Assembly: GCA_903840415.1 (NCBI GenBank)
Contig: CAIMFY010000018.1
Span: forward strand, 1-52,927
Source of the DNA: an uncultured Opitutia bacterium
GTDB taxonomy: Bacteria > Verrucomicrobiota > Verrucomicrobiia > Opitutales > Opitutaceae
Length of the DNA: 52,927 nt
Reading direction: 5' to 3'
Positions within the stretch are counted from its first letter, which is position 1; each line of letters begins with the position of its first letter. Shown here one piece after another: positions 1-52,927 of the stretch. Under the pieces are notes generated by a model. The model was not told where the DNA came from. It was given only the letters and a program-made list of their open reading frames with translations, and did not search any database. The translations under genes and the position numbers were made by a program.

Positions 1-114
1 CCGGGCTCGTGCCTGTCGCGCTGGCGGGGCGATGCCGCGAACTGACGCGGTGCTCATTGTGTCCGGTGCAAACCCGGAGATTAACGGCCGCACTCGCTGT
101 TCGCGCGGCCTCAT
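1..114 (-). CDS. possible partial ORF leaving the left edge
   Basis: An ATG at 114 opens a minus-strand frame that stays open to the window edge, with a second in-frame ATG at 57. The visible N-terminus is rich in Arg, Ala and Pro and shows no motif I recognise. It would lie downstream of gmk on the same strand, where another metabolic or RNA-polymerase-associated gene could sit, but nothing visible identifies it. It could equally be non-coding. Confidence 0.2.
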   Translation of the reverse strand, partial: MRPREQRVRPLISGFAPDTMSTASVRGIAPPARQARAR

Positions 115-254
115 TGGCTCTTTATCTCAAACCGCCTTCACGGGCTCGCTGTGATAAAAGCCTATGGTTTTTCGAACGGTAGAGCGACCGGCGCAGCGCC
201 GGGTCGGACTTCGGATCGTCGCGAGGAAGCTCGCGGGCAAAATCGGACAGCGGT

Positions 255-41565: not shown

Positions 41566-43431
41566 TTATTGAGCCCGGAGACCCCTGCCCGACTCCACCC
41601 AAACCATCAAAATACTGATATCGGCCGGACTCACTCCACTTATGCGACTAGCCTGGCCAAGGGTCATGGGTTTGATCTCGGAAAGTTTTTGAGCACTTTC
41701 TTTTCTAAGTCCACTAATAGACATGTAGTTAAAATCACTGTTTAGTTTAATTTTTTCGATCTGAGAGAGTTTTTCGACCTGACGATGTTCGCGCATAAGA
41801 TAACCCTGATAACTAACGCGATAAAGTGTTTCGTCGCGGATAGGTTTCGATTCTTTTTTAAATTCTTCTGGTAAAGATGTTTGAATTCCTTCCCGTCTTA
41901 TAATTTCACCCCAAGTGCTTCCATTATTGCGATTCTGTTCAAGACGATCGACCCACTGCAAAATGCGGTTTTGTTTCGAGCGAATTTTATCGATCCGGTT
42001 ATAAGTTAAAAGACCTTGATCTACAGCGTGTTCAATCAATCTAAGTTCAGCGCTTCCGTGATTAAAAAGCAGACGATGCTCGGCGCGACTCGTGAACATT
42101 CGATAAGGCTCATTGGTTCCTTTGGAAACGAGATCGTCGATCAGCACGCCAATGTAACCTTCGTGCCTTTTAATGATAAGAGGAGCCGCATTCCTTACCT
42201 TGTTGGCGGCGTTGACACCTGCCACTAGACCTTGGGCTGCCGCCTCTTCGTAACCGGAGGTTCCGTTGATCTGGCCAGCAAAGAATAGGTTCTCCACTTT
42301 CTTCGATTCCAACGATGGAAACAACTGCGTCGGCGGCGCGAAATCGTATTCGACGGCATACGCCGGACGTAGGATTTCTGCGCTTTCTAGTCCTGGAACG
42401 CTGCGAATCATTTTATGCTGAGTGACGAATGGCAGACTTGTTGACAAGCCATTCACATAGAATTCATTGGTTGTTCGGCCCTCTGGTTCGAGAAAAAGCA
42501 GATGTCTTGGCTTATCTGAAAATCGAACAAATTTGTCTTCGATACTTGGGCAATACCTTGGACCAACGCCCTCTATGTGTCCCCCGTAAAGCGCCGACAG
42601 GTGCAGGTTGCTTCTGACAATGTCCGCTGTCTCGGGCGTCGTATAGGTCATCCAACAAGAAACTTGTTCACAACCAGGACGCCAGCCGAGGCGGTTTTCA
42701 TCTGTACGTTCTACGTGGAACAAATCGCCGCTCTGTCTGGTGTCATGGAATGCGAAAAACGTCGGAACGGTGTCGCCCTTTTGCTCCGCCATCTTGTTGA
42801 AGTTCAGGGTCCGGCCTAGTAGTCGAGGAGGTGTGCCCGTTTTTAGTCGACGTAGTTCAATACCGGCGTCGAGCAGGCTTTGCGACAGTGTCTTGGCGGC
42901 GAAGTCACCCAGTCGTCCGCCTTCGTTTTTGTTTTGCCCGATATGCATAAGACCGCGCAAAAACGTTCCGGTCGTAACAACTAATGTGCGACAGTAAAAA
43001 TCAAGATCAAGATTCGTTTTACATCCTACAACTTTGCCTTGATCGAAGATGAGCTTGGTAACGGTAGCCTGAAAAATCTGAAGGTTTGGTTGGAGCTCCA
43101 GTGTGTGCTTCAGACGAAATTGATAGGCCTTCTTGTCGCATTGCGCACGAGGGGATTGCACGGCTAAGCCTTTTGTTTCGTTTAGTAAACGAAACTGGAT
43201 CCCTGTCAGGTCCGCATTGATTGCCATTTCTCCGCCTAGTGCATCGATCTCTCTAACTATCTGGCCTTTGGCTTGACCACCAATGGCTGGATTGCAGCTC
43301 ATTTGAGCAATGGTGTCTATATTACCCGTGAGAAGGAGGGTGGACGCGCCTACACGTGACGCTGCTAAAGCCGCCTCAACACCAGCGTGTCCTGCTCCAC
43401 AGACAATTACGTCAAACTGAAACATGTTCAA
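41566..43431 (-). CDS. mnmG: tRNA uridine-5-carboxymethylaminomethyl modification enzyme MnmG
   Basis: FAD protein that, with MnmE, modifies the wobble uridine of several tRNAs. [29 protein letters not shown] is the FAD-binding motif, followed by [26 protein letters not shown]. Cys-containing motifs ([20 protein letters not shown]) and the C-terminal domain ending in a helical tail are present. Length 621 is usual. By eye the coding sequence, especially its 3' third, is much more AT-rich than the neighbours and uses TTA, AGA and AAA codons freely. It lies 29 bp after mnmE. Confidence 0.96.
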
Positions 43432-51486: not shown

Positions 51487-52563
51487 TCACGCTTCCGGTT
51501 CGCCGCCGGTCACGGGTTCGCCGACCTTGATGGTAACTTTTTCGAGAATCGCCTGGGAGATTTTTTCGGCGAGCTCGGGCTTTTCCTTGAGCGCGAGCTT
51601 GGCGGCGTCGCGACCCTGGCCGACGAGCGCGCCTTCGTAGGCGATCCAAGCGCCTTTCTTTTCGAGAATCTTGTGCTCGAGGCCGAGATCGAGGAGCGAG
51701 CCGATCTTCGAGATGCCCTCATCATACATGATATCGAACTCCACCTCGGTGAACGGCGGGGCGATCTTGTTCTTCACGATTTTGATCTTCGTGCGGTTGC
51801 CGATGACTTTGCCCTCGGGCGTCTTGATCTGGTCCTTACGGCGGATGTCGATACGGACGGACGAGAAGAACTTTAGCGCGCGGCCACCGGACGTCGTCTC
51901 GGGGCTGCCAAACATCACGCCGATCTTTTCGCGAATCTGGTTGGTGAAGATGCACACGCAGTTCGTCTTGCTGACGACAGCGGTGAGCCGGCGCATGGCC
52001 TGCGACATCAGGCGGGCCTGGCTGCCCATGGTCATGTCGCCCATCTGACCGTCTAGTTCGGCCTTCGTGATCAACGCGGCGACGGAATCGAGGACGATGA
52101 CGTCGATCGAGTTGGAGCGAATGAGCGTCTCCATGATGTTGAGCGCGTCTTCGCCGGAGTCGGGCTGGGAAACGAGAAGATCATCCAACTTCACGCCGAC
52201 GACGCGCGCATATTTCGGGTCGAGCGCGTGCTCGACGTCGATGAAGGCGGCGAGGCCGCCTTTTTTCTGTGCCTCGGCGATGACGCTGAGACAAAAGGTG
52301 GTCTTGCCGGACGATTCCGGACCGTAGATTTCGATGATGCGACCCTTGGGCAGGCCGCCGACACCGAGCGCGAGATCGATGGCGAGCGAGCCGGTCGAAA
52401 GAGTTTCGACCTTCATCTTCTGGTTGCTGCCGAGGCGCATGATTGAGCCTTCGCCGAACTGCTTCGTAATGGCGGAGAGTGCGAGGTCGATGTTCTTGTC
52501 GCGGGCGTGGGTGGCGACGGAAGGAGCGGCGGCGGTGACTTTGGCGGGGGCGACTTTGGACAT
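51487..52563 (-). CDS. recA: recombinase A
   Basis: DNA strand-exchange ATPase of homologous recombination and the SOS response. P-loop [12 protein letters not shown] near residue 73, [23 protein letters not shown]-type Walker B ([15 protein letters not shown]), and loop 1/2 region [31 protein letters not shown]. Length 358 is standard. The frame is open upstream to 52683, but the ATG at 52563 gives the family-like N-terminus (SKVAPAK...[24 protein letters not shown]). A LexA-type palindrome lies about 115 bp upstream. Confidence 0.97.
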
Positions 52564-52927
52564 GGTGATGAGTGTCTGAGGGCTTTGGTTGTGGTTAAAA
52601 AAGAGAGTGATCGGCAGCGGGCGAGTCGGGATTTGCGAGGCAAAAACGATGCTGGCCGAGCGAGAGATAGGTGACGTGTTCATTTGAACACGTCAAGCTT
52701 TTGTGGTGCCCACGATCGACACTTTAGGCGCTGGCGCGAAATCAACCGCGCTGGAGTCAACCGCGCAGCGCACCGTCAGGTCTGAATTGAATGGCGCTTA
52801 ATTGGAACACGTTGGTTTCCAGCGATTGCGATGGGGAGATTCTTTGTACAGATGACGGGGTTTGTTGAGCAAGGCATAAGCTTTAGGTCGTCGTTTCACG
52901 GCCCGCGGCTCACGGCGGTGTGGGCGC
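52564..52927. other. intergenic stretch upstream of recA to the window edge
   Basis: Contains the recA leader and LexA-type operator (52673-52696). A direct repeat TCAACCGCGC occurs at 52742-52751 and 52757-52766 (15-bp period). A plus-strand frame opens at ATG 52831 and is still open at the edge. No strong homology was seen in that frame (MGRFFVQMTGF...), so I do not call it a gene. Confidence 0.6.
52673..52696 (-). promoter_or_regulatory. LexA-type operator overlapping the recA promoter
   Basis: A perfect palindrome with 10-bp arms and a 2-bp centre (GACGTGTTCA-tt-TGAACACGTC, 52673-52694) contains TGTTC-ATTT-GAACA at 52677-52690. This matches the form TGTTC-N4-GAACA reported, as I recall, for Verrucomicrobia LexA. 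On the minus strand TTGACG at 52696-52691 is a plausible -35 directly overlapping it. The palindrome fills the spacer, and a weak -10 (around CACCTA/CCTATC) follows. Repression by LexA is inferred. Confidence 0.75.

Follow-up and report, generated by a model that had tools for sequence, protein, structure and literature searches.

The LexA repressor of the Verrucomicrobia reportedly recognizes a palindrome with the consensus TGTTC-N4-GAACA, a motif which is said to have been defined by Erill et al. in 2016. Insertion sequences have also been connected with the SOS response. According to PMC13393415, there are reports of SOS control for IS10, a dispute over Tn5 and a demonstration for ISCR elements, and the transposases of ISCR1, ISCR2 and ISCR8 are under LexA, with binding and induction shown in E. 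coli. Irradiation-induced transposition of a Deinococcus element is the subject of PMC2806898. SOS control of insertion sequences can be regarded as already known; for tnpB elements no report of LexA control was found in the literature searched (titles and abstract openings, with most subscription journals outside the scope). A literature search with the same limit on journals returned no report of an IS5-type DDE transposase paired with TnpB.

The window analyzed here, a whole stretch of 52,927 nucleotides, is contig C18 of a 4.91-Mb genome in 124 contigs. Its nearest recA matches among named genomes were Opitutae and Opitutaceae metagenome-assembled genomes with no more than 96% identity, the genome itself and very near ones having possibly been excluded from the comparison. 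Like the described verrucomicrobial system, this Opitutaceae-related genome carries the core palindrome at both recA and lexA. The following features of the window are relevant:

1-180, plus strand: right terminus of a copy of element A, a mobile element described below; positions 1-50 are a 94% match to element A
51487-52563, minus strand: recA (TIGR02012, 505.7 bits, cut-off 325.3)
52668-52673, minus strand: CACCTA, the -10 position of recA at 17-nt spacing, a weak match by eye
52672-52695, no strand: perfect palindrome of 24 bp, TGACGTGTTCA-TT-TGAACACGTCA, read directly and recomputed
52677-52690, no strand: core LexA-type operator TGTTC-N4-GAACA, TGTTCATTTGAACA, an exact match, the motif also being found at lexA1 and in relatives
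52691-52696, minus strand: TTGACG, the likely -35 hexamer of recA, read and recomputed, adjoining the core

The palindrome upstream of recA

As the start of recA we took the ATG that begins MSKVAP, although the reading frame stays open as far as 52683. Approximately 117 nt upstream of the gene lies the palindrome, which when recomputed from the window proved to have 11-bp arms around a 2-bp centre, TT. An earlier note on this DNA had placed it at 52673-52696 with a length of 22 bp; the palindrome is real, its span being 52672-52695, one base to the left, and its length 24 bp. The TGTTC-N4-GAACA described within it is exact. Based upon 60 first-order Markov simulations, a mean of 0.03 exact cores per window is expected. 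With up to one mismatch allowed, 1.22 sites were expected by shuffling and one was found, which is the exact one. Palindromes of any sequence with 11-bp arms occurred with a mean of 0.22, and at least one was present in 20% of simulations, for which reason the palindrome was rejected as a rarity in itself. Since such palindromes are not rare and the exact core is, it is the specific core and where it lies that carry the weight of the evidence, and not how far the symmetry extends. Elsewhere in the window (43175-43195) a palindrome with 10-bp arms, GTTTCGTTTA-G-TAAACGAAAC, was observed, at approximately the chance level (0.85 expected).

TTGACG begins 133 nt upstream of the recA ATG (minus strand, 52696-52691). 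It had been described as overlapped by the palindrome, which holds for the extended palindrome, with five of six bases in common, but not for the core, which it only abuts. A consensus promoter scan upstream of recA gave no promoter-like site, and so no support for CACCTA as the -10 sequence. The suggestion that the extended symmetry indicates high-affinity binding was dropped, as the -35 hexamer accounts for one arm of the extension and the other arm is for the most part poorly conserved. Seven recA loci of relatives have an exact core with an adjoining TTGACG (L040, L057, L060, L061, L064, L097 and L098), and CGTC is present on the far side of the box in only two of them, L040 and L057. A sister genome, G241 (L191), also has CGTC, with box surroundings identical to those of L040.

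LexA proteins and conservation of the box

The LexA model matched three places in the genome: lexA1 on contig C17 (matched at 89203-89799, 141 bits), lexA2 on contig C122 (125.8 bits) and a partial match on contig C113 (60.6 bits). The first two are over the NCBIfam LexA cut-off and the third is under it. The lexA gene upon which the earlier reading of the palindrome depended is therefore present, in the form of two LexA proteins. A domain search identified LexA HTH and S24 peptidase domains in the lexA1 protein, which aligns along its length to solved LexA chains and retains an Ala-Gly pair, a Ser and a Lys at the positions known in LexA for the cleavage site and catalysis. The lexA1 box, TGTTCACTTGCACA, is located two bases upstream of the ATG and agrees with the recA box at nine of ten core bases, one of its half-sites being altered to GCACA.

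lexA2, which also has an HTH domain, is the first gene of a cassette (L034 2-5336, G000:C122) with a palindrome of its own, GTCCAGTTGGAC. Its other genes are an ImuA-like one, which reached 51.7 bits against a cut-off of 150, a Y-family polymerase-like one, whose best score of 65.6 bits also falls short of the cut-off, and one that is DnaE-type by eye. A search for the motif before lexA, imuA/B and dnaE2 had been suggested; it is present at lexA1, and the imu/DnaE cassette starts with lexA2 and a different palindrome. Since the cassette has its own palindrome, two LexA motifs are probably in use in this genome.

Conservation was examined at recA in 80 loci of named relatives, kept from 571 confirmed ones and searched over the 450 bp that precede the matched start, with the core pattern read backwards as control. 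The exact core was found at eight loci, a core with up to one mismatch at 11 and with up to two at 15, compared to 0, 0 and 4 for the control. TTGACG directly precedes the box in seven of the eight exact loci, four of which (L060, L061, L064, L097) hardly differ in the sequence surrounding the box and do not count as independent. The exact core is missing from 72 of the 80 loci, including two (L041 and L043) with 96%-identical RecA.

Relatives of lexA1 were present in 83 of 150 family genomes (E <= 1e-30), and boxes were read in the best 30 lexA matches only, the genome itself included. Exact boxes were found in 16 of these, boxes with up to one mismatch in 22 and with up to two in 26, and the backwards control gave none at any level. 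Of the 26, 21 have a TTGC that precedes the box by 18-20 nt (by exactly 19 in 13), and in 14 the gap between box and ATG is two bases. Three lexA boxes were changed symmetrically on both sides, once to TGCTC-N4-GAGCA and twice to TGTCC-N4-GGACA (L162, L164, L160); double changes which preserve the symmetry fit the expectation for a dimer site. Judged by these three boxes, the motif seems to drift within the family. The operator appears to be anchored at lexA, and with the exact core absent from 72 of 80 recA loci the control of recA would be patchy among relatives. As a taxonomic marker, for which it had been recommended, the box is consequently weak at recA and better at lexA, where more than half of the 30 loci read are exact.

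A strict form of the motif, TGTKCANNTGMACA, was found at 22 sites in this genome and at none when read backwards. These comprise recA, lexA1, one coding match (contig C123), one copy of a second mobile element, element B (contig C101), and 18 copies of element A; hence 19 of the 22 are at mobile elements. The element B copy on contig C13 has an exact TGTTC-N4-GAACA whose centre differs from the strict form. Sites with one mismatch were not accepted as a regulon, many of them being due to chance (54 versus 22 backwards) and several lying within coding frames. In eight relatives, chosen for a lexA with a box or for the presence of element B, 18 strict sites in total and no backwards ones were found; these were at lexA in all eight, at recA once, at a radical SAM gene in three cases, at element B in two and in argH-like coding sequence in two. 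The coding matches in argH, assigned by eye (G188, G346 and contig C123 here), were not taken as targets.

The radical SAM gene is of the PA0069 type, and in three of the eight relatives (L199, L200 and L195; genomes G241, G239 and G172) the strict box immediately precedes the start of the gene. Two of the three proteins were checked and scored 459.5 and 463.5 bits (cut-off 360), and the box in sister genome G241 has one half-site GCACA. This gene is likely to be an SOS gene in the family of these bacteria. The remaining two of the 18 sites are exact boxes, one before a gene at G239:C70:307955 (L206), where TTGACG adjoins as at recA, and one before another gene at G329:C242:457 (L209).

The palindrome upstream of recA is very likely the operator of the main LexA repressor, LexA1, and very probably an ordinary operator of the Verrucomicrobia type. 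The SOS operator proposed in the earlier note is thus well supported, by the exact core, by its place, by the like operator at lexA and by conservation; the points against it are the 72 relatives without an exact core, the GCACA half-site at lexA1, the presence of a second LexA and the poor -10. On the plus strand the palindrome scores as terminator-like (stem 10, loop 4, followed by AGCTTTTGTG), and two terminator-like sites were found in 300 bases compared to 0.2 in shuffles, which would suit a palindrome that functions at the RNA level, as a hairpin or intrinsic terminator, instead of binding a protein. However, it is the core bases, not pairing alone, that are common to the lexA box and to the recA boxes of relatives, the box stays beside TTGACG in seven of eight exact loci, and the plus-strand frames upstream of the palindrome are antisense to recA. 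A function as RNA is considered extremely improbable. That the box serves LexA2, the repressor of the imu cassette, or another repressor is hardly more probable: LexA2 scores over the LexA cut-off and has an HTH domain, but the cassette palindrome is unlike the recA box, to which the lexA1 box corresponds at nine of ten core bases.

In terms of LexA1 control, a dimer on 52677-52690, between the TTGACG -35 and the -10, would keep recA low. RecA filaments on single-stranded DNA would then bring about LexA self-cleavage, freeing recA and lexA. Operator binding, LexA cleavage and induction are expected here from established SOS biology.

Boxes at two transposon families

The first mobile element, element A, was represented by 20 left ends found by DNA search, and in all 20 a box precedes the tnpB-like gene, abutting its start codon approximately 100 bp inside the left end. 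A serine-recombinase transposase gene was absent before tnpB in the copies of this genome, and the element was therefore named IS607-like and tnpB-only. The leaders are 76-79% identical (seven matches, 139-145 bp). The strict form of the box is found in 18 of the 20 copies and the exact consensus in two. In 13 copies the box reads TGTGC-N4-GCACA, altered on both sides, a form which is absent from the 26 lexA boxes and from the recA loci of relatives examined. Pairs 1-14, 2-13, 3-12 and 6-9 of the box are invariant (n=20), pair 5-10 is disrupted in a single copy, and at pair 4-11 there is G-C in 13 copies, T-A in two and a mismatch in five. The lexA promoter layout, TTGC-N15-box-CT-ATG, recurs in 18 of 20 copies, TTGC preceding the box by exactly 19 nt, and 16 to 19 of the 22 bases from the box start agree with lexA1.

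Most element A copies run off contig ends and a long gene is present only on contig C64. Its product diverges from relatives after approximately residue 380 and gave no match to TNB/RuvC-type domain models. Protein relatives were found in five other genomes of 200 in the family, as four long matches (58-70% identity) and one fragment. The TnpB of one of them, L178, scored 35.9 with TIGR01766 (cut-off 32), 21.2 with PF07282 (cut-off 26.3) and 43 with NF040570 (cut-off 100). Each of the four long relatives is preceded by a serine-recombinase frame, and that of L178, the only one to which the family model was applied, scores as an IS607 transposase (183 bits, cut-off 110). None of the four IS607-type relatives (L178, L179, L180 and L181) has a box, the best match within 330 bp having four mismatches. 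Both ends of element A have GG, an IS607-like feature. The contig of the window begins inside an element A repeat (1-180), and the similarity among eight right ends continues as far as ...TTCGAACGGT, window position 180. No Rfam match up to E 0.1 was obtained for the right end at four loci, and it was not accepted as a known RNA; window 1-180 folded no better than its shuffles (z -1.13), of which 23 in 200 equalled or surpassed it.

Element B is 2.5 kb in length and encodes a DDE transposase divergent from a 491-aa TnpB relative, with the box located between the two start codons. The transposase is IS5-type (NF033579, 220.8 bits, cut-off 140), and the ends match, also in the IS5 manner (GGCCCTGTTGCATAA / TTATGCAACAAAGCC, by eye, from the copies on contigs C13 and C101 only). 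Its TnpB scored 28.5 with PF07282 (cut-off 26.3), 41.7 with TIGR01766 (cut-off 32) and 63.9 with NF040570 (cut-off 100). This protein was found in four of 252 family genomes, in one of them by a fragment, and beyond the family in none of 387 sampled phylum genomes, the single match being this genome itself. Copies with a box are present in three genomes (C13 and C101 here, G329:C45 and G241:C69). In all six pairwise comparisons of these four copies, nine or ten of the ten core bases agree. Between genomes the 60-bp flanks, compared ungapped and mostly coding, are identical at 27-43 of 60 positions, and between the C13 and C101 copies at 52 and 59 of 60. A TnpB copy in G241 without a transposase (L187) and two TnpB fragments (L188, L190) showed no box with up to two mismatches outside coding sequence, and a fragment on contig C38 (L189) has a box only in the two-mismatch form.

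A specific operator sequence is common to lexA1, recA and two element families. Elements A and B are probably under LexA control by the host repressor, and the claim is put no more strongly because the TGTGC-N4-GCACA form of 13 element A copies is unseen at the lexA and recA boxes examined. The competing view, to which we give perhaps one chance in three, is that the element boxes are not LexA operators and have a role in transposition, in the translation of tnpB or in binding a different repressor, whether carried by the element or not, the likeness being due to descent or chance. The doubly changed form and the scarcity of exact boxes (two of 20) are in its favour, as are L187 and L189, with no box and a two-mismatch box respectively. 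In addition the box touches start codons in both elements, so a hairpin could act on translation. Against this, the box is common to two unrelated element families, lexA and recA, and element A repeats the layout of lexA. No box is present in the four IS607-type relatives of element A that were examined. One half-site is GCACA in the boxes of lexA1 and of the G241 radical SAM gene as well, and the element B core is kept over three genomes while the flanks drift.

If LexA does control the elements, the recA/lexA operator would have been taken up in this genome by two families of transposons that carry tnpB-type genes. If TTGC is the -35 at lexA1 and element A, the -10 would be covered by the box, and transcripts would begin at the ATG or right beside it. 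More tentatively, and somewhat short of an even chance, two unrelated transposon families may have put their tnpB-type genes, and in one case also a DDE transposase, under the host SOS repressor, one of the families with the layout of the lexA promoter, and may profit from RecA-active cells. tnpB-type genes are presumably of the RNA-guided nuclease type. If the proposal is true, DNA damage would release nuclease and transposase just when RecA is active, the time at which the empty site could best be cut and the element restored to it by recombinational copying. If LexA binds, the tnpB-type genes of 22 transposon copies (20 of element A and two of element B) would be tied to the DNA-damage state, a simple and testable example of how transposons can employ a repressor gene's promoter layout. 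The boxes at the mobile elements matter more than the recA site, which is as expected for the phylum.

Comparison with known systems

Compared to the LexA motif described for Verrucomicrobia, the recA site shows no essential difference, whereas the lexA1 box differs in its GCACA half-site and most strict sites of this genome are in mobile elements. The elements resemble ISCR in that an insertion-sequence gene has, at its promoter, a box of the type recognized by the host LexA. The ISCR transposase is HUH/IS91-type, in contrast to the tnpB-type genes and the IS5-type DDE transposase found here, and the box here is, by its sequence, of the Verrucomicrobia type. With regard to IS607, the closest long tnpB-like proteins (58-70% identity, four genomes) follow a serine-recombinase transposase gene, whereas element A has a leader of approximately 100 bp with a box and no transposase gene before tnpB. 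Element B is like IS5 in its transposase type and matching ends, and differs from it in the addition of a divergently oriented 491-aa TnpB relative and of a box common to both genes.
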